From NCBI GenBank assembly GCA_944364615.1, contig CALVWF010000005.1, positions 1 to 64,000 of the forward strand: a stretch of 64,000 nucleotides of DNA, written 5' to 3'. The stretch is from an uncultured Clostridia bacterium. Its GTDB lineage: Bacteria > Bacillota > Clostridia > Christensenellales > CAG-314. The position numbers were made by a program, and so were the translations under genes. A model generated the notes under the pieces. It was given only the letters and a program-made list of their open reading frames with translations, searched no databases and was not told where the DNA came from. Below are positions 4,151-15,210 of this stretch, piece after piece; position 1 is the first letter of the stretch; the number at the start of each line of letters is the position of its first letter.

Positions 4151-6382
4151 TTACGCCTTACGGCTGCAATGCACAATGTGTATGTCTTTGCCGTCCTCAA
4201 GCCCCTTGTCGCGCGCCATTTCGATACAATGATAGGTGCCGCCCAGATTTACGGGATTGCCTTTTTCGTCCGTCAGAGGCGTTTTTTCGCCGTCCCACAA
4301 TGCAATTACCTTGTCGCACCGCGATACGATATACTCAGAGGCTTTCAGATAGGTGTAACGGCTGTCCTCAACAGTCTTGCACACAACTGCCTGCGCCAGA
4401 AGGTGACGCATTTCAATTTCGTCCTGTTCGGTAAATGTACCGTGTAACTTTGAATCAAGCCGAACGGAGTCTATATACTCTTCGTAAGGCAACGGCAGCA
4501 CCGCTTTGGTCGCGAGTCCCAATTCATTGGCGCACCGCACTATCAACTGATCCGCTCCGGTAGCGTAACCGGAATATACCACCACGCGGAAATCTTCGCT
4601 GTACTTTAACAGAATTTCTTTAACGGCCTGTTTTAACTGTTTTTCATCCCCGTTTAAATGTCTGTGCCCTATACCCGCAATGTTGAGGTCGGGTTTTCTG
4701 CCGTAACGGTATCTGTAAATACGTATGTTGTGACCCTGTTCATACAGCAAAGGTACCATATTTCTGACCATAAGCATGTCTTTTTGCTTTTCGCTTTCCG
4801 GTAACAGATCGTAAGGCACAAGACTGACGTGTTCTTTAAGGCTGTCGCGCTTTGCCCTGTCTTCTTTGCCAGTTTCCGCATCGATGTAGGATTTACCGTA
4901 ATGCCAGCCGTCTGCAAGTTTTTCTCTTACCCATCTCAAATGTTCCTCTCTTGCAAGAAATCCCAGGTCGTCTTCGTTGCCGTCACTTCCGTCGGTAAAA
5001 TCCGTCACCACGGGGTAATCCAATTCCTTATCGCTGAAAAAGCAGTTGACAAGTTCCAGTTTGTACATATACGACTGCGCTTGTCTTATATTGGACATTT
5101 TTGTTTCGAGGGGCAGTTCGTCAAAATCCGCACCGCCGTAAATACTTTGATAACTCTTGTGAATCGCTACGGCAAAATCGCACAGATTTACAAATTTTTC
5201 CTCAGACGCATATTGCTGACGGCGTCTTGTTTTCGCACTAATTCCTGCGGTTGCGGAAATTTCCGTGTGAGGCACTACAACTTTGTAAATATTGCCTATA
5301 AATTTGCTTTTACCGTTGTCGCATTGCAACGCAAGCACGTTTCTGTTGGGATACCCGCTGTTTCTTCCGGGGACCTCCACTTCGAAACTGTCGAAAATAT
5401 AATTCACAGCAATTTTGTTGTCCGTAATATCGAATTCCGCTTTCCATGCAAGGGGATCTTTCTTGCTGACGTACCCGAACGCCTCGCGATCCCAGTTCTG
5501 TAACTCGTCGCACAGCATAAGTAAATACGCCAGAGGATGTTCCGTTGCCGTAACCGCATGCGAACATTCTATATTGTACCTGTTTAAACTGTTGTGCAGC
5601 AGTATGGCCGTCAACACGTCCAGCGTCTGTTGAGTCACAACGTTGTCGGTCATTAGTTTGTTTGCCAGCACAGCCGCACTGTAATAGCCGTGATCCATAA
5701 AAGAGTCGGGAGCGGGACTTGTACGCTTGTCAAGAATATCCTGCACATACCCTCTGTCATAGCCCATACGCGTGCTTACTCCGTATGCGAGAAGACTGTT
5801 TATATCGGTAAATTTTTCATCCGTTTCCAGTTGCGTTCGGTCGCAGTCGGTTTTCAGCACGCTGTCAAAGTTGACGATAGCAACGCCCGGTACAGCCGGT
5901 AATTGCCACAACTCGGAAACGTAAGACTTGATCTGTTCGTGAGCAAGTTGGAAGGGATAGCCTATGTCGTGAAAAAGCGCGGTAAGTCCCCAGTTTTTTA
6001 AAAAATTCATATCGCCGTCTTTACAACGGTAAAAGTCATTGTAGATTTTTCTGTAAGGTTTGTTGTTGGCATATATCGCCACTCCTATCGCAAACACATA
6101 CACCGAGTGGACGTAATGATCGCGGTGTTTTGTGAGCAAACCTCCCGAATGGTATTCGTGATCGGCAAGCAATTCCAGCAATTTCTGAGTTGCCTTATAT
6201 CCGTTGCCGAACAAGCGGAACATTTCGCAAAAGCAGAAGTACACCGAAAAAGCGTCGCTCTTGGTACCGCTGTTGCAAAAGTCGTTTAACACCCTTTTGA
6301 AACATTGAAGATCCTTTTTACCGACGCTGTCCGATGTCGCGTCGAAGGGGAAGTTGTCGCACATTTCCGCAAGCGTATACAT
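4151..6382 (-). CDS. HD - RyR - SLOG three-domain protein, putative nucleotide-signal effector
   Basis: A 743-residue soluble protein with three recognisable parts. Residues ~70-300 look like an HD-superfamily phosphohydrolase: KHRDHYVH (86-92), the dyad in ALFHDIGY (H138, D139), H231 in MDHGYYSA, H263 in ILLHN and D292 in LCDELQNWDRE. Residues ~476-545 match the RyR domain (REEHLRWVREKLADGWHYG, then LVPYDLLPESEKQKD). Residues ~567-738 match a SLOG/Rossmann-like domain (IAGIGHRH, YSGYATGADQL, VLPLPYEEY, GGTYHCIEMA). SLOG and bacterial RyR domains were proposed by Aravind and colleagues to bind nucleotide ligands in conflict and signalling systems. It has its own consensus promoter, a GAGGT site and a terminator. 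Inference: nucleotide sensing coupled to HD-catalysed hydrolysis. Substrate unknown; domain calls are by eye. Confidence 0.8.
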   Translation of the reverse strand: MYTLAEMCDNFPFDATSDSVGKKDLQCFKRVLNDFCNSGTKSDAFSVYFCFCEMFRLFGNGYKATQKLLELLADHEYHSGGLLTKHRDHYVHSVYVFAIGVAIYANNKPYRKIYNDFYRCKDGDMNFLKNWGLTALFHDIGYPFQLAHEQIKSYVSELWQLPAVPGVAIVNFDSVLKTDCDRTQLETDEKFTDINSLLAYGVSTRMGYDRGYVQDILDKRTSPAPDSFMDHGYYSAAVLANKLMTDNVVTQQTLDVLTAILLHNSLNRYNIECSHAVTATEHPLAYLLMLCDELQNWDREAFGYVSKKDPLAWKAEFDITDNKIAVNYIFDSFEVEVPGRNSGYPNRNVLALQCDNGKSKFIGNIYKVVVPHTEISATAGISAKTRRRQQYASEEKFVNLCDFAVAIHKSYQSIYGGADFDELPLETKMSNIRQAQSYMYKLELVNCFFSDKELDYPVVTDFTDGSDGNEDDLGFLAREEHLRWVREKLADGWHYGKSYIDAETGKEDRAKRDSLKEHVSLVPYDLLPESEKQKDMLMVRNMVPLLYEQGHNIRIYRYRYGRKPDLNIAGIGHRHLNGDEKQLKQAVKEILLKYSEDFRVVVYSGYATGADQLIVRCANELGLATKAVLPLPYEEYIDSVRLDSKLHGTFTEQDEIEMRHLLAQAVVCKTVEDSRYTYLKASEYIVSRCDKVIALWDGEKTPLTDEKGNPVNLGGTYHCIEMARDKGLEDGKDIHIVHCSRKA

Positions 6383-6415
6383 ATGAATACCTCACATTAA
6401 CAAATTTATAAAATA

Positions 6416-6444
6416 ATTATAAAGAATGTCTGTCGCGTTGTCAA
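6416..6444 (-). promoter_or_regulatory. Promoter of the HD-RyR-SLOG gene
   Basis: On the minus strand, TTGACA (6444-6439), a 17-bp spacer and TATAAT (6421-6416) form a perfect sigmaA consensus, about 35 bp before the start codon. Confidence 0.8.
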
Positions 6445-6505
6445 TCGTAAACGGGCACTCGGATTTTACTGAAAAACAGTTTCCCACTTGCAATTTCAAA
6501 GCCGT

Positions 6506-6534
6506 TGACGTGACTACTCTATTGTGTTATAATA
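6506..6534 (+). promoter_or_regulatory. Promoter of the nrnA-nrnA-surE operon
   Basis: TTGACG (6506-6511), a 17-bp spacer and TATAAT (6529-6534) lie 30 bp before the first nrnA start. It faces away from the HD-RyR-SLOG promoter, with about 60 bp between the two -35 boxes, room for a shared operator. Confidence 0.8.
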
Positions 6535-6563
6535 AACTCTAAAACTTTTCAGAGAGGTATAAA

Positions 6564-7508
6564 ATGTTCCGAGAGGCTCTTGAACTTATAAAAAAGTTTG
6601 ACACCGTAATTATTCACAGACACACCAATCCTGACGGCGACGCAATAGGCAGTCAGGTAGGTCTGAAACATCTGATACAGACAAATTACCCCGACAAAAA
6701 AGTTTATGCCGTCGGGGACGAAGCAAAAAGATATTCCTTCATGCAAGACAGCGTAATGGACACCGTGGAAAGCGAAACTTTTGCAAACGCACTGTCAATC
6801 GTACTCGATACGTCTGCGAAATTTCTGATTTCCGACACACGCTACACCGATGCCGCCGCAACTCTCCGATTCGATCACCACTTGTTTGTGGAAAAAATCT
6901 GCGACGTGGAAGTAATAGACACTTCGAGAGAAAGTTGCTGCGGTCTTATAACGGCATTTGCGTTGCAAAGCGGTTGGAAGTTTTCGCCTGTTGCGGCACA
7001 ATCACTGTTTACGGGAATGGTCACCGACAGCGGACGTTTCCGTTACGACGCAACTACGCCCGAGACATTCCGACTTGCCGCAATGTTGCTGGAACAGGGA
7101 TTTGACATAAACGACGTCTATTCCCCTCTTTACGCCGACGATTTCGACATGATAAAACTGCGTGCGCAGTTTGTGCTGGAAATAAAATTCACTGCCAACA
7201 ACGTTGCATACATCTACACCGACAAACAACGCGTAGAGCAACTCGGCGTTGATACTTTTACCATTTCAAGAGGAATGGTAGGGGTTATGTCGGATATACG
7301 CGGCGTGGACAACTGGGTAAACTTTACCGAAACGGATCAGGGAGTGCTGTGCGAACTGCGTTCCAAGAAATACAACATAAATCCGATTGCCGTAAAATAC
7401 GGCGGCGGAGGACACCAGAAAGCAAGCGGAGCAACCGTTCCCGACAGAGAAACGGCAATGAAAATGCTTGCCGATCTTGACGCAATGTGCGCGTCGCAAA
7501 ACAATTGA
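6564..7508 (+). CDS. nrnA: DHH-family phosphoesterase, NrnA-like (copy 1)
   Basis: A 314-residue DHH/DHHA1 protein of the NrnA type, enzymes that degrade 2-5 nt RNA, pApA and 3'-phosphoadenosine 5'-phosphate. Metal-binding motifs are intact: NPDGDAIGS (22-30), VLDTS (D82), FDHH (103-106) and GMVTDSGRFR (151-160). The DHHA1 glycine-rich motif YGGGGHQKASGA lies near the C-terminus. An AGAGAGGT site precedes the start. It is followed 14 bp later by a related gene and then by surE. Paralogues side by side suggest divided substrate ranges (inference). Confidence 0.9.
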   Translation: MFREALELIKKFDTVIIHRHTNPDGDAIGSQVGLKHLIQTNYPDKKVYAVGDEAKRYSFMQDSVMDTVESETFANALSIVLDTSAKFLISDTRYTDAAATLRFDHHLFVEKICDVEVIDTSRESCCGLITAFALQSGWKFSPVAAQSLFTGMVTDSGRFRYDATTPETFRLAAMLLEQGFDINDVYSPLYADDFDMIKLRAQFVLEIKFTANNVAYIYTDKQRVEQLGVDTFTISRGMVGVMSDIRGVDNWVNFTETDQGVLCELRSKKYNINPIAVKYGGGGHQKASGATVPDRETAMKMLADLDAMCASQNN

Positions 7509-10037: not shown

Positions 10038-10220
10038 GAGTTTTTTGCAATTTTTTTTTTGAAAAATTTTTAAAAATTTTTTGTCTGCAATCAAGTCGGC
10101 GTTAAACTTGTCCTGACAAACGCTTTATGCGTCCCAATCGGTAATTTACCGTTGCTTATCCGCCTACGTGTATTCCATTTCTGACAGCGCAACTTTGTCT
10201 GGCGCTTGCACATTGCCTAC

Positions 10221-10252
10221 AAAAAAAACGCTTTCGGCTGTAGCCGAAAGCG
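10221..10252 (-). terminator. Terminator of the corrinoid methyltransferase operon
   Basis: The stem CGCTTTCGGC / GCCGAAAGCG with loop TACA (minus strand) is followed by eight T residues on the minus strand. It lies just beyond the regulator gene's stop codon. Confidence 0.9.
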
Positions 10253-10260
10253 TCAGATAT

Positions 10261-11520
10261 TCAATTTTGCCATATTTTCCTGTATTTTGCGGGAGTAAGA
10301 CCTACGCTCTTTTTAAAAGTTTTTATAAAGTGATTGTAATCGCCGAACCCTGATTCCGACGCTATCGATTCCACCGACTTACCTTTGGCACGCAGCAGTT
10401 CCTTTGCCCTCTCCACGCGCAGCGTGCACAGATATTCCGAAAAGGTAGTATGCATTTCCTTTCTGAACAGATGACTGAGATAGTAACTGTTGATGTAAAC
10501 TTTTTCCGCAACATCGGACAGCGACAACCCTTCTTCCGTAAAGTGTTCGTTGATGTACTGAATTGCCTTTCCGAGATGTATGGAAACATTCTTCTGCGGT
10601 TGCAACGCATAGATTTTGTCTATACAGTAATTCAGTATAGACACAATTGTCTGGCAAATATCGGTAAATCCGGCATTTTTGTTAAGTATGGAAGAGGCGT
10701 TTCCTATAACCTCCATCATCTCGGTAAGCGGCACTCCCGCCTCTACCGTCGCACGGGAAATAAACGCGCTCAGTTCGTACAACTTTACTTTAATCACATC
10801 CAGATTACCGTCGGCAAACAGCAGTATTTCTCCGAAAAATCTGTTAATAATTTCCACCGCTTTATTGCGATTGCCCAGCAGAATGTAGGTAATAAGCTCT
10901 TTTTCCGACTTGACGGGATAGGCACTGCAACGGGCTTCCTCTAACTGTCTTGCCGACCTCAACGCATCTTCTTTTTCCGCAATCGCCTTGTTGATCTGTT
11001 TACTGGTGCGATCCATACGCCGTCTGAACTCGGAACGCTCTTCCGCCTGATGAGTAACGTAATCGGACAGCACTTTTAAAATACTCACTGCACTGCGAAG
11101 TTTTTCGCACGTAGTCTGTACGACTTCTGCCGGCTTGTCGAATTTCTGAGTGTTTCGTTCCCTTTCTTCGGGTGTTATGTCTTCCAGATCCCACAATATA
11201 ACGGGTCCGCTGATGATAGAGCCTATCAGTCTGCCGCCATAAACCACCGCAATTGCGCAAGCGACAAATCCGCAAGAGGTAAAAAAAATGTAAGGTTCGC
11301 CCAGTTCAAACGCTTTGTTTGCTCCGTAACATATCCCGCTTACGCATTCGTCACGGTTTTTAACGCACAGGCACAGTGCGTTACTGCCCGATGACAGTTG
11401 TTCATTGCCCTCGAGATCGTACAACGCCACATCGTAACCTGTTGTAACTGCGTAATTTACAAACAACTTTTTTAGTTGATCGTAATCGAATATGTTCCTG
11501 AGTTCAAGACCTTTCATCAA
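10261..11520 (-). CDS. PocR sensor - AraC DNA-binding transcriptional regulator
   Basis: A 419-residue one-component regulator. Residues ~5-160 match the PocR ligand-binding domain (LFVNYAVTTGYDVALYD, a cysteine-rich stretch with CLCVKNRDEC, LIGSIISGPVIL). A helical linker with many Lys/Glu residues (~160-200) may be a coiled coil. Residues ~315-419 form an AraC-type double helix-turn-helix (LSLSDVAEKVYINSYYLSHL and ASESGFGDYNHFIKTFKKSVG). It is the last gene of the corrinoid operon, 11 bp after the DUF2284 gene, so it probably controls its own operon in response to the methyl-donor substrate or a corrinoid (inference). PocR-AraC proteins often regulate B12-dependent pathways. Confidence 0.88.
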   Translation of the reverse strand: MMKGLELRNIFDYDQLKKLFVNYAVTTGYDVALYDLEGNEQLSSGSNALCLCVKNRDECVSGICYGANKAFELGEPYIFFTSCGFVACAIAVVYGGRLIGSIISGPVILWDLEDITPEERERNTQKFDKPAEVVQTTCEKLRSAVSILKVLSDYVTHQAEERSEFRRRMDRTSKQINKAIAEKEDALRSARQLEEARCSAYPVKSEKELITYILLGNRNKAVEIINRFFGEILLFADGNLDVIKVKLYELSAFISRATVEAGVPLTEMMEVIGNASSILNKNAGFTDICQTIVSILNYCIDKIYALQPQKNVSIHLGKAIQYINEHFTEEGLSLSDVAEKVYINSYYLSHLFRKEMHTTFSEYLCTLRVERAKELLRAKGKSVESIASESGFGDYNHFIKTFKKSVGLTPAKYRKIWQN

Positions 11521-11531
11521 TTTCTCCTGTA

Positions 11532-12065
11532 TTAAAACAACAGAGCGGAAAAATACGTCACCGTGTCCGTTCCGTTGATATAATTAATCTGACATTTACG
11601 TGCCAATTCGGCGACGTCTATTCCGCATGCTTCCAATGAAGGCGTAGCCTGATCGGGAAACCTGCACGGCTCGTCGGGGTAAGTACAAACTGAACATTTC
11701 TTACATCCGTGCGCCAACAGCAATACGGTCTCAAAAGGCAAATCATTAAAAAGCACACGCATGAGTCGGTTGTGCTGCTTGCCTGCATTTATCATTCCTT
11801 CGTAGTCGAAACTGTCTTGAAGATTGTGACAGGTAGTCATTACAAGAATATGACCGTAGCATTGCCGGTACTCCTTGAGCCGTTTTTGACCGTCTACGGC
11901 GGGAGGACAAGTCCAATATTTGCCGTACCTTCCGCATCGGTTTGCCTTGCACATATCCACTACTTGCCGACTGAACTGCAAATTGCTCGTTTCTATTATA
12001 CCATACTGAAACACTTTATTGCATATAATTTGTTCGAGTGTACTCTTTTTTTGTTGATAATCCAT
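11532..12065 (-). CDS. DUF2284 cysteine-rich metal-binding protein
   Basis: A 177-residue protein of the DUF2284 family (predicted metal-binding). Cysteines cluster in two groups: C39, C44 and C53 in DMCKANRCGRYGKYWTCPP, and a second group in HGCKKCSVCTYPDEPCRFP. That pattern suggests an iron-sulfur cluster or Zn site. The start lies 3 bp after the reductive-activator stop, with no clear ribosome site, so translation is probably coupled. DUF2284 genes commonly accompany corrinoid methyltransferase modules; a redox role in cobalamin re-activation is possible but unproven. Confidence 0.85.
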   Translation of the reverse strand: MDYQQKKSTLEQIICNKVFQYGIIETSNLQFSRQVVDMCKANRCGRYGKYWTCPPAVDGQKRLKEYRQCYGHILVMTTCHNLQDSFDYEGMINAGKQHNRLMRVLFNDLPFETVLLLAHGCKKCSVCTYPDEPCRFPDQATPSLEACGIDVAELARKCQINYINGTDTVTYFSALLF

Positions 12066-12068
12066 ATT

Positions 12069-13535
12069 TTAAAAACTCAGATTTTCTATATACGTCTCCG
12101 CGAAATCCGCATCGTCAGACAATTCAACCACGTTACATTTCGAAGTCTTTTCCTTAAGCACGTCCAGCAACGATCTGTCGTCAAGTATTCTGATCGCTCC
12201 TTGCAGGCTGCTGTTGCCCACCGCAATAGCCTTGTCTTTGAGTTGACGCGGAATTACGCCGGCAATACTTGCGTTGGAAATATCAGTGTAATATCCGAGA
12301 CCGCCCGCTATGTACAGTCTGTCAACATCGTCCAACGACGCGCCCGCCTTTTTAAGCAGTACTGTTACTCCCGAACACAATGCGCTTTTAGCCAACTGGA
12401 ATTGTCTTATATCCTTTTGTGAAACATAAACATCGCAAGTTATATACGCTCTGTCATTAAAGTCTGATTTTTCCAAAAAAGGTCTCTTGCCGTTACAGAA
12501 TGCACCGCTCTCGTCTATTCCTCCGTTTTCGATAAGCAATGCGATTGCATCCGTCAGACCGCTTCCGCACAAGCCCTTGGCGGCAGTTCCGTTTATCGTT
12601 TGGATATTTAGCCGTCCGTCAAAACCTATTCGGCTAATCGCCCCGTCAACACCTCCCATTCCGCAGGAACACGCTCCTTCGAAAGCGGGACCAGCCGCAG
12701 TGGAAGCACACCACAAAACGCCGTTGTTGTTCACAACAACTTCGCCGTTTGTTCCTATGTCCATCAACACTTTCACTCCGCTGTCGCCCAGCATATCCGT
12801 TGCCACCAATCCCGCAGCGACGTCGGCACCGACATATGCCGAAATTCCGCACACAAGAGTTGCTTTTTTTATAAGTAAATTGCTGTCTGTAACAATTTTT
12901 GCGTCAAGAAAAGTCGGTTTAAAAGGTGCAACGCCCATTGAAACGGGACTGACTCCGCACAAAATGTGCAACATTGTAGTGTTTGCCGCGATTACACCGT
13001 TTTCCACCGCGCTGTCACAGCCTGTAAGGCTTCGTATCAAACCGTTTATGTCATTTGTCACCGCGTCGCGCATCTTTTCGAGATTGCGTACGTCGGAGCA
13101 GGCGCGTATTCTTGAAATCACATCACTTCCGAACACGCTTTGCGAATTCAGACAACTGGCATATCGGATGTTTTTGCCGTCACAGTAAGCCGCAGCAATC
13201 GTAGTTGTTCCTACGTCAACGGCTATGCCTGTTTTGTCCGTGGAAATACCGCTGAAAAACTTTTCAATTCCTTTACCTTCTGCTTCATCCAGATCCACCG
13301 TAATGTCTTCCTTGACAATACTTCGGCACGCTCGCACTTTGCCACTGCCTGTAACCGCACATTCGCCGCTGGTTACGTTTACCACGCACTTGCCACACTT
13401 GCCGTTGCCACCGCAAGGCGCAACGACAAGGTGACCCGTACGTTGCAAAAAGGTTAAAAGATCGATGTTTTTCTCGCAGTCATAACAGGTTGTCCGCCCA
13501 TGTTGCTTTACCGTAACAGTACAGAAATCACGCAC
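12069..13535 (-). CDS. Corrinoid reductive activase (2Fe-2S ferredoxin - ASKHA ATPase, RamA/RACo type)
   Basis: About 488 residues. The N-terminal ferredoxin domain has the pattern C41-x5-C47-x2-C50-x19-C70 in PCGGNGKCGKC, typical of a plant-type [2Fe-2S] cluster. The rest is an ASKHA ATPase-like domain (DUF4445) with GIAVDVGTTTIAAAY, MDIGTNGEVVV and GLCGSGLTDAI. Such proteins use ATP to reduce inactivated Co(II) corrinoid back to Co(I). I place the start at a GTG (13535) overlapping the corrinoid gene's stop, with AAGG six bases upstream; an upstream start at 13586 would add a proline-rich, non-family leader. It acts on the protein encoded just before it. Confidence 0.88.
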   Translation of the reverse strand: MRDFCTVTVKQHGRTTCYDCEKNIDLLTFLQRTGHLVVAPCGGNGKCGKCVVNVTSGECAVTGSGKVRACRSIVKEDITVDLDEAEGKGIEKFFSGISTDKTGIAVDVGTTTIAAAYCDGKNIRYASCLNSQSVFGSDVISRIRACSDVRNLEKMRDAVTNDINGLIRSLTGCDSAVENGVIAANTTMLHILCGVSPVSMGVAPFKPTFLDAKIVTDSNLLIKKATLVCGISAYVGADVAAGLVATDMLGDSGVKVLMDIGTNGEVVVNNNGVLWCASTAAGPAFEGACSCGMGGVDGAISRIGFDGRLNIQTINGTAAKGLCGSGLTDAIALLIENGGIDESGAFCNGKRPFLEKSDFNDRAYITCDVYVSQKDIRQFQLAKSALCSGVTVLLKKAGASLDDVDRLYIAGGLGYYTDISNASIAGVIPRQLKDKAIAVGNSSLQGAIRILDDRSLLDVLKEKTSKCNVVELSDDADFAETYIENLSF

Positions 13536-14160
13536 AGTATGCCTTGGCGACCTCGGCGGCGGTAGCAGCATCGGGAGTATAAGCATCTGCTCCTATCTCG
13601 TCTGCGAATTGCTGCGTAACAGGCGCCCCTCCTATCATTATTTTAACTTTGTCACGCAATCCCGCCTGATCGATTGACTCTATAATGTCTTTCATATTTA
13701 CCATTGTAGTAGTGAGCAACGATGACAAACCTACTATATCGGCGTTATACCGGCGTATGGCATCGATTATCTTGTCCGCACCGCAATCCACGCCAAGATC
13801 AACAACGTTAAAACCTACCCCTTCCATCATTATCTTGACCAGATTTTTACCTATATCGTGAAGATCTCCTTTTACGGTACAAAGCACTACCGTTCCTATT
13901 GACTGCACTCCTTCATTTACAAGCGCAGGTTTCAAAACTTTTAAAGCCATGTTCATTGCACGAGCGGCTATAAGCACTTCAGGAACAAAAACCTCGTTGT
14001 TTTTAAACTTTTCGCCTATTATCGACATCCCCTTGATAAGGCCTTCTGTCAATATGTCTTTGGGAGATACTCCGGCAGCAAGTTGCTGTTCGACCAACGC
14101 AGTAAGATCCTTTGCTTTACCGCGCTCAAGAAGTTGCGCCATTTCGTCAAATGTATTCAT
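13528..14160 (-). CDS. Corrinoid (B12-binding) methyl-carrier protein, MtbC/MtaC type
   Basis: A 210-residue two-domain protein: a helical cap (about 1-85) and a Rossmann-like B12-binding domain. The cobalt-ligating signature is KGDLHDIGKN, with D99, H101 and G104 giving DxHxxG; SLLTTTM and GGAPVTQQFADEIGADAY complete the domain. It carries a methyl group on cobalt between a donor-specific and an acceptor methyltransferase. AGGAGGT precedes the ATG. It lies 36 bp after the UroD-type methyltransferase gene. Confidence 0.93.
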   Translation of the reverse strand: MNTFDEMAQLLERGKAKDLTALVEQQLAAGVSPKDILTEGLIKGMSIIGEKFKNNEVFVPEVLIAARAMNMALKVLKPALVNEGVQSIGTVVLCTVKGDLHDIGKNLVKIMMEGVGFNVVDLGVDCGADKIIDAIRRYNADIVGLSSLLTTTMVNMKDIIESIDQAGLRDKVKIMIGGAPVTQQFADEIGADAYTPDAATAAEVAKAYCA

Positions 14161-14196
14161 ACTTACCTCCTATTGTAATGTAAAGCCTTCGCTGTA

Positions 14197-15210
14197 CTAT
14201 TTGCCGTTGTAGTAGTCGGAAACGGCATTGAAGAAACTTTGTATATTCTTCCAGTCTGCATGGTAGGGAATATCACACCCCGATGAAATGACAAAGTTGG
14301 GGTATTTGTCGCACAGCCTTTCCATGAGTTGCTTTGTGCAACGGTAAACGGACTCCTCGCTTCCGTTGCAAAACTGTCCGGCAGGATCTATATTTCCCAT
14401 AGCAATTACATCTGACGGCATTCCCGCCAGCACATCGCCCATGTCCACAGCATTGCCGAAATGGTAACAACTGCAACCCGTACGCAGAATAGAGGGCAAC
14501 ATTTTTACCGTTTCGTTTCCGCAGTTGTGGTAAATGACTATAAAATTGTCCTCCTGTAACTGCGCAAGTCTGCGAACAAAAGGTTCGGAAAACCTTTCGG
14601 CAAATTCAGGCGACAGCAATCCTGCAAGCGGTTCGGCAACCACTACTCCGTCTGCACCCGCCCGCTTGTATTCGTTGATGTAATTTTCCAGAAACCGTGT
14701 AGTTTTGTCAAGCAAACGTTCTAACGCCTCAGGCTCATCGTAACAGTAAAACATAGCCTCATTTACGTCAAGCAGTCTGCCTGCAAGAGAAAACGGACCT
14801 ATCACGCCCGCAAACACCGGACGGTCGGTAATATTGTTTTTGGCAATACGCACTGCTTCCACATAAACAGGCGCCCTGCAACTCGACACGGCAGGAACTT
14901 CAAGGCTGTCTATTTCTTCGGGAGAAGTTACCACAGAATGAGTTACGGTTGGCACTTCGTCATCGGAAAACACCAACTGCGCTCCGAAACATTCCGCTTC
15001 GACAGACAAATCCATAAAACTTACGGATGCTGCCGAATTTGTCCTTTCCGCTACAGCCTTCATTGCCATTGCCTGCAATTTGCTGTCTTTTACAAGTTGC
15101 CCTATACTTGTGCCTATCAGTTGTCCGCCCGGATAAGACAAAATCGGCAAAACCTTGCCGGCGTCCTTTCTTTCCAGCAAAGACTTTACCCATTCGATCC
15201 TGTTAAACAT
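14197..15210 (-). CDS. UroD-family cobalamin-dependent methyltransferase
   Basis: A 337-residue member of the uroporphyrinogen-decarboxylase superfamily, in the methyltransferase branch (MtaA/MtbA/CmuA type) rather than the heme enzyme. Supporting this, it has HNCG near residue 228 and SGCDIP near 312, the His-x-Cys...Cys set that binds zinc in this branch, and it heads an operon with a corrinoid protein and a reductive activase. The heme decarboxylase's N-terminal arginine motif is not apparent. It either demethylates a growth substrate or passes methyl from cobalt to an acceptor; no MttB- or MtaB-type partner lies in the window. GGAGG precedes the start. Confidence 0.85.
   Translation of the reverse strand: MFNRIEWVKSLLERKDAGKVLPILSYPGGQLIGTSIGQLVKDSKLQAMAMKAVAERTNSAASVSFMDLSVEAECFGAQLVFSDDEVPTVTHSVVTSPEEIDSLEVPAVSSCRAPVYVEAVRIAKNNITDRPVFAGVIGPFSLAGRLLDVNEAMFYCYDEPEALERLLDKTTRFLENYINEYKRAGADGVVVAEPLAGLLSPEFAERFSEPFVRRLAQLQEDNFIVIYHNCGNETVKMLPSILRTGCSCYHFGNAVDMGDVLAGMPSDVIAMGNIDPAGQFCNGSEESVYRCTKQLMERLCDKYPNFVISSGCDIPYHADWKNIQSFFNAVSDYYNGK

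Follow-up and report, generated by a model that had tools for sequence, protein, structure and literature searches.

One UroD-type enzyme and one corrinoid protein reportedly suffice for both half-reactions in MtsA/MtsB, the methylthiol:coenzyme M methyltransferase of Methanosarcina barkeri that Tallant is said to have described in 2001. Other members of the UroD family, namely, OdmB, VdmB, MtvB, MtoB and CdmB, are presented in passages of PMC13222342 as first methyltransferases. According to passages of Kountz & Balskus (PMC10418091), a His-Cys-Cys zinc site marks S- or Se-methyltransferases, whereas O-demethylases have a Cys replaced; ClMlp2 is stated there to methylate selenide and, more slowly, sulfide. 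The subject of this report is a protein of the same family, URO-A, encoded with a corrinoid protein, a RACo-type activase, a DUF2284 protein and a PocR-AraC regulator at positions 15210 down to 10261 of the window, a stretch of 64,000 nucleotides from contig CALVWF010000005.1 of an uncultured Clostridia bacterium (assembly GCA_944364615.1, here genome G000). URO-A most likely acts on the thiol side of a corrinoid methyl transfer, as a folate-free bacterial counterpart of MtaA/MtbA, since its sequence carries a His-Cys-Cys site, its predicted structure is MtaA-like and it forms the constant part of loci with varying partners. By analogy with archaeal MtsA, it is further proposed, with a chance a little short of even, that the operon is a folate-independent corrinoid system in which this single enzyme carries out both half-reactions and shifts a methyl group between sulfur atoms.

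Alignment with MtaA (4ay7), with which URO-A shares 22% identity, assigns His228, Cys230 and Cys312 as zinc ligands. This His-Cys-Cys set is found in 80/80 orthologues, the best 80 of 564, a sample that is biased to close relatives and whose rows are not independent. The orthologues are widespread, with 564 confirmed candidates in one genome-collection scan; a good orthologue, unannotated, is also found among plasmid records, and viral contigs contain no relatives, with 34 pattern matches and none confirmed in one scan. Isolates with an orthologue include Christensenella hongkongensis (L043) and Faecalicatena orotica (L071). (G-numbers designate genomes and L-numbers loci; G065, with 26% identity, is excluded as an orthologue.) In the NCBIfam collection, URO-A scores below every cut-off, with 129.8 against 235.4 for TIGR01463, 134.1 against 244 for PRK06252, 103.2 against 400 for MtaA and 94.6 against 600 for MtbA, and thus is not a member of the named MtaA, MtbA, MtaA/CmuA or HemE families. 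A HemE function is rejected at 70.7 bits against a TIGR01464 cut-off of 302.95. The predicted structure, with a predicted local distance difference test (pLDDT) score of 94.2, retrieves MtaA first in Foldseek (E 3e-20), and VIA-align places MtaA 4ay8 nearest (Z 39.5, root-mean-square deviation of 2.1 over 320), followed by the uroporphyrinogen decarboxylases (HemE, Z ~35) and MetE (Z ~23).

A tree of 60 rows, into which every fifth of the 80 URO-A rows was entered and which is anchored only by a partial MtaA sequence taken from the PDB alignment and by a cluster of Faecalicatena orotica, divides at a split of 100/99. One side consists of 29 partner rows with no His-Cys-Cys protein; the other contains 31 rows, 27 of them His-Cys-Cys, including MtaA, the UroD proteins of the F. 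orotica mlp-type cluster and URO-A as its own clade (17 rows, 98/100). F. orotica possesses both the mlp-type cluster (L171, G109:C3), comprised of four UroD-like genes, a corrinoid protein and an activase, and a separate URO-A (L174). The occurrence of both in the same genome indicates that URO-A and the UroD proteins of this cluster are paralogues.

All five genes of the window are intact and lie on the minus strand, with Pfam matches over the cut-offs. The features are as follows.

14197..15210, minus strand: UroD-family corrinoid methyltransferase URO-A, 337 amino acids, MtaA-like (PF01208, URO-D 179 bits; PRK06252/TIGR01463 134/130 bits, below cut-offs; predicted structure)
14527..14529, minus strand: codon of His228, predicted zinc ligand (aligned with the MtaA His; His in 80/80 orthologues)
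14521..14523, minus strand: codon of Cys230, predicted zinc ligand (aligned with an MtaA Cys; Cys in 80/80 orthologues)
14275..14277, minus strand: codon of Cys312, predicted zinc ligand (aligned with an MtaA Cys; Cys in 80/80 orthologues)
13528..14160, minus strand: corrinoid protein, 210 amino acids, with the D-x-H-x-x-G cobalamin motif (DLHDIG) (PF02310/PF02607; B12-binding 97 bits, B12-binding_2 73 bits; nearest PDB sequence 1y80)
12069..13535, minus strand: RACo-type ATP-dependent corrinoid activase with an N-terminal 2Fe-2S-like Cys cluster (PF14574, PF17651; RACo C-terminal 208 bits, middle 121 bits; nearest PDB sequence 3zyy)
11532..12065, minus strand: DUF2284 protein with 7 invariant Cys and a predicted nitroreductase-like fold (PF10050, 141 bits)
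10261..11517, minus strand: PocR-sensor/AraC-type regulator, last gene of the operon (PF10114, PF12833; PocR 71 bits, AraC-type helix-turn-helix 80 bits)
10227..10254, minus strand: intrinsic terminator-like stem-loop 3' of the PocR gene (consensus scan: 12 pairs, then a T run)

GTG 13535, which overlaps the stop of the corrinoid gene, is the probable start of the activase, rather than the ATG of a 505-amino-acid open reading frame (the longest frame, to 13586), and the PocR gene probably starts at ATG 11517. With these starts, the first two genes are separated by 36 bp, the second and third overlap by ~8 bp, and the last two gaps measure 3 and 14 bp. This tight spacing, with the terminator-like stem after PocR, makes it very likely, as judged from the sequence, that the five genes are one operon, as the preliminary description of this DNA had held; the contig begins only 10.3 kb beyond the 3' end of the operon. 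The assignment of the activase to the RACo type relies on its ASKHA domains (PF14574, PF17651) and on the alignment with RACo 3zyy, in which the N-terminal segment scores 18.2 bits. An Rfam scan of the window gave no matches and hence no cobalamin riboswitch above the threshold.

The grouping is not a product of chance, as it recurs at orthologous loci: at 44/80, a corrinoid gene lies no more than 6 kb from URO-A, and among these 44 a RACo gene is present at 29, DUF2284 at 27 and PocR at 29. The partners of URO-A at the 44 loci vary. A UroD protein without the His-Cys-Cys set is found at 18, MttB at 4 and only another Cys-Cys UroD at 1, while 21 lack a partner over a distance of 6 kb; for 11 of these 21, the flanks extend 5 kb or more to either side. 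From 45 neighboring UroD-like reading frames, 36 were retained (those under 100 bits were dropped) and 34 of these are alignable; they show His-Cys-Cys in 4 cases, Phe-Cys-Cys in 1 and other sets (HDN, HCH, HDC and others) in 29. No folate-type methyltransferase occurs at the 80 loci with 25 queries, the sole pterin-binding match being a dihydropteroate-synthase-like gene at L060. At L087, the corrinoid protein, MttB and URO-A are consecutive on one strand, and G114, which has MttB (L064), encodes no UroD protein other than URO-A, with the sole Pterin_bind match in a MetH-like frame of ~799 amino acids. Methanogens have the layout MttB-MttC-MtbA, and the arrangement in L087 and G114 is, by analogy, this layout in bacteria.

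UroD-type proteins of ~455 to 460 amino acids with a Phe-Cys-Cys site are encoded at L066:2561-3943 and L177:6520-7881 and group together in the tree. The C-terminal part of the L177 protein matches thioredoxin models, hinting at a thiol acceptor within one chain.

Across the G000 assembly (1.69 Mb, 14 contigs, 93.45% complete), in which the window is the first part of contig 5, no match to MttB (PF06253) or MtaB (PF12176) is found, no second URO-D protein besides URO-A and no second B12-binding_2 protein besides the corrinoid protein of the operon; all of the assembly-wide family searches gave matches in control genomes. A partner of the MttB, MtaB or UroD family elsewhere in the assembly is therefore rejected. 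The preliminary description had seen no second methyltransferase in the operon, which for these three families extends beyond the window, and an MttB-type gene elsewhere, named there as the finding that would overturn its reading, does not occur. The absence of MttB and MtaB is in itself no oddity, since UroD-family proteins are known first methyltransferases in the passages of PMC13222342. The same assembly contains no Pterin_bind protein of any kind and no S-methyl_trans, MetE or MTHFR protein. Without Pterin_bind and MTHFR, a tetrahydrofolate or acetogenic methyl sink is rejected, and the acetyl-CoA route as the sink is excluded on the same two counts, the genes for carbon monoxide dehydrogenase/acetyl-CoA synthase themselves not having been searched for. 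What stands of the compact demethylation system suggested earlier is thus a compact corrinoid methyl-transfer system; an acetyl-CoA sink is not supported, and for an enzyme on the His-Cys-Cys, MtaA-like branch, away from the variable partner UroD proteins, the compounds named there for testing (methoxylated aromatics, methylamines and betaines) would be unlikely substrates of direct demethylation.

In the proposed one-enzyme mechanism, the zinc of URO-A would bind a thiolate or thioether sulfur, and the enzyme would take the methyl group from a methylthio or methylseleno compound and place it on Co(I) carried by the corrinoid protein. In the second half-reaction, the methyl group would pass to another thiol, with sulfide, homocysteine, cysteine and small thiols as candidates, similar to archaeal MtsA with coenzyme M. 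RACo would return oxidized Co(II) to Co(I) in an ATP-driven reaction, DUF2284 probably handles the corrinoid or supplies electrons to it, and the PocR-AraC protein would sense a small substrate and switch the operon. In relatives, URO-A would act on the thiol side together with separate demethylases, and in G000 the demethylase partner would have been lost.

Several points weigh against this mechanism. Of 21 URO-A genomes (plasmid record W01 excluded), only G000, G103, G114 and G091 have a single URO-D match, the count for G091 coming from a genome that is 86% complete with the gene at a contig end. Most hold further UroD proteins (2 to 19 in 17/21), which makes a one-enzyme system the exception. 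A partner could also sit in the missing 6 to 7% of the genome or belong to another family, and the decay in the sister species G001 described below fits degeneration as well as specialization. In the main rival, URO-A is the second, thiol-side enzyme only, and the corrinoid protein is charged by a first methyltransferase whose family is unrecognized or whose gene lies on unassembled DNA. The varied partners in relatives, MttB included, the additional UroD proteins in 17/21 genomes and the completeness of 93.45% all favor such a two-enzyme system; the empty UroD, MttB and MtaB families elsewhere in the assembly and the loss, complete or in progress, of the adjacent partner in G001 speak against it, and it is judged rather unlikely.

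The distribution of folate and methionine enzymes bears on the identity of the thiol. Pterin_bind is absent from 5/26 URO-A genomes (G000, G001, G046, which is 51% complete, G059 and G105). S-methyl_trans is absent from 3/16 (G000, G001 and G059) and present beside URO-A in 13/16, MetE is absent from 16/16 and MTHFR from 4/16. G000, G001 and G059, all 90 to 94% complete, lack the four families together, so that in these three no known enzyme could carry a methyl group between the corrinoid and methyl-folate in either direction. MetE proteins have a His/Cys zinc site, and their fold is that of URO-A (Z ~23). Together with the absence of all four families from these three URO-A genomes, this is consistent with a corrinoid methionine synthase, in which homocysteine is the thiol and the operon supplies methionine where no known methionine synthase is present. 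The control points the other way. S-methyl_trans occurs in 47/101 relatives, and in the family of the window it is absent from 20 of 23 listed genomes and present in 3, although within this family URO-A is found in G000 and G001 only; all of the other genomes lacking S-methyl_trans thus lack URO-A as well. As most of the listed family genomes are without S-methyl_trans with or without URO-A, loss of methionine synthase is a family trait, and the idea that URO-A replaces MetH is weakened. With S-methyl_trans also retained in 13/16 URO-A genomes, a methionine synthase has only a small probability.

G001, the only genome of the same genus searched, also has URO-A. The gene following it (L017 9512-10571) is that of a UroD partner bearing a His-Cys-His set, but it contains two TAA stops and its front half lies in another frame; the PocR gene (L017 4373-5560) has an internal stop. 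At L036:7093-7413 (G103, Candidatus Gallimonas), the N-terminus of the activase is joined in frame to the tail of a second UroD protein, as after a deletion (or through misassembly). The broken partner and this fusion suggest partner loss as the apparent origin of the one-enzyme state. Both would also fit a relic, an operon that has lost its demethylase and is disappearing. In the window, however, the five genes are intact, the catalytic residues are conserved and the spacing is tight; the intactness of all five is the reason for preferring function over decay, and a relic is judged improbable. That URO-A itself removes the methyl group of a methoxylated compound, the type of reaction preferred earlier, is highly improbable: the UroD family includes O-demethylases (passages of PMC13222342) and both kinds of system share the activase and corrinoid protein, but the His-Cys-Cys set, the position on the MtaA side of the 100/99 split and the lack of a folate-side second methyltransferase in the assembly speak against it.

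The DUF2284 protein contains seven Cys residues (39, 44, 53, 121, 124, 127 and 134) that are invariant in 23/23 proteins. With its predicted structure (pLDDT 89.7), Foldseek gives the epoxyqueuosine reductase QueG as the best match (E 5.8e-4), and VIA-align ranks the reductive dehalogenase NpRdhA (Z 8.9), human MMACHC (8.7) and QueG (8.2) ahead of flavin nitroreductases of the same fold, at Z values near the level reachable by unrelated matches. NpRdhA, MMACHC and QueG are B12-dependent or B12-handling proteins. An hhalign comparison with QueG covers only 30 N-terminal columns, with an E value of 0.041 compared to 0.46 for one unrelated control; the best PDB match by sequence is carbon monoxide dehydrogenase (E 0.012), and the Pfam matches are weak. 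The literature passages found that mention DUF2284 state no function for it. As a lead from the modeled fold, the protein may be a corrinoid-handling or electron-feeding Fe-S protein.

Passages of PMC8359953 describe Sporobacter, Sporobacterium and Parasporobacterium as converting methoxylated aromatics to products including methanethiol or dimethylsulfide by a sulfide-dependent O-demethylation, and the title of the Parasporobacterium paper cited there calls the process obligately sulfide-dependent. Neither the enzyme of the sulfide step nor this UroD clade is named in the passages of the literature found, mostly judged from listings. URO-A is a good candidate for the sulfide-step enzyme of demethylation of the Sporobacter type. 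Its group is common in gut Clostridia, with no laboratory study of it apparent, and may explain how these bacteria dispose of methyl groups, as nonacetogenic gut bacteria need an outlet for those taken from diet and host compounds. A broader proposal, possible but doubtful as a whole, sees in URO-A the missing methyl-corrinoid:sulfide/thiol methyltransferase of nonacetogenic gut Clostridia, a bacterial MtaA without coenzyme M or folate that is served by interchangeable UroD or MttB demethylases and releases methanethiol or a methylated thiol; G000 would have a one-enzyme form, and DUF2284 would be a new Fe-S protein that handles B12. If true, this would constitute a folate-free methyl route bearing on volatile sulfur, on the cycling of methylated sulfur and selenium and on gut methyl metabolism. 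It would explain an obligately sulfide-dependent demethylation as reported for Parasporobacterium and would give DUF2284 a testable role. The wide occurrence of URO-A makes the long-known sulfide-methylation phenotype directly testable.

Some further observations concern the surroundings of URO-A in relatives. The neighbors of stand-alone URO-A genes appear housekeeping-like by eye from their sequence starts and point to no substrate. Sugar ATP-binding cassette (ABC) permeases lie beside URO-A or related corrinoid-UroD genes at L027, L033 (1-10000), L059, L073, L074, L100 and L140, with glycosidase-like genes also at L027 and L033; methylated sugars could be donors. At L025, L026, L035 and L085, a lipoprotein with a subthreshold DUF4430 match and a small membrane protein adjoin the cluster, at a guess an uptake pair for cobalamin of the energy-coupling factor (ECF) type. 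Proteins of ~675 to 683 amino acids whose start (GIDTGGTYTDAV) resembles that of hydantoinases/oxoprolinases are encoded upstream of URO-A in two genomes (L014:6596-8644 and L076 ~5340-7360). In a Treponema genome, a homocysteine-methyltransferase-like stretch with a GGCCGT motif closely follows URO-A on the opposite strand (L098 ~10046-10190, up to 10657).

Compared with the known systems, the operon shares a UroD-type enzyme, a corrinoid protein and a RACo-type activase with the O-demethylases OdmB, VdmB, MtvB and MtoB. The first enzyme of those systems has an incomplete His-Cys-Cys set, in which one zinc Cys is replaced by a carboxylate or has no counterpart (passages of PMC10418091), whereas the set of URO-A is complete; their second enzyme methylates tetrahydrofolate, for which G000 has no Pterin_bind protein. 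URO-A resembles the methylcobamide:coenzyme M methyltransferases MtaA and MtbA in fold, zinc ligands and a thiol-side role next to MttB-type partners, and it differs from them in its identity to MtaA of only 22% and in its scores under every NCBIfam cut-off. MtsA/MtsB is archaeal and has coenzyme M as the acceptor. It is likened to the present system by description, not by sequence, in that both have one UroD and one corrinoid protein, with no other corrinoid methyltransferase of the UroD, B12-binding_2, MttB or MtaB families in the G000 assembly.

The closest published kin are the MtaA-like type 1 mlp clusters, as described in passages of PMC10418091. These need at least two Mlps, in contrast to the one URO-D protein of the whole assembly, their description in those passages does not name DUF2284 or PocR, and URO-A forms a clade separate from the four UroD proteins in the F. 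orotica mlp-type cluster. Of the other features used to define such clusters, the His-Cys-Cys zinc ligands (H228, C230 and C312) and a co-oriented corrinoid protein and activase within 2 kb are found here; for the absence of a folate methylase within 20 kb, the assembly has no Pterin_bind match, but on one side the contig extends for only 10.3 kb. Like the type 1 mlp clusters of those passages, the operon combines a His-Cys-Cys UroD protein with a corrinoid protein and an activase of the Ram/RACo kind, has no folate methylase as far as the assembly shows and belongs to anaerobes in which its distribution is patchy.

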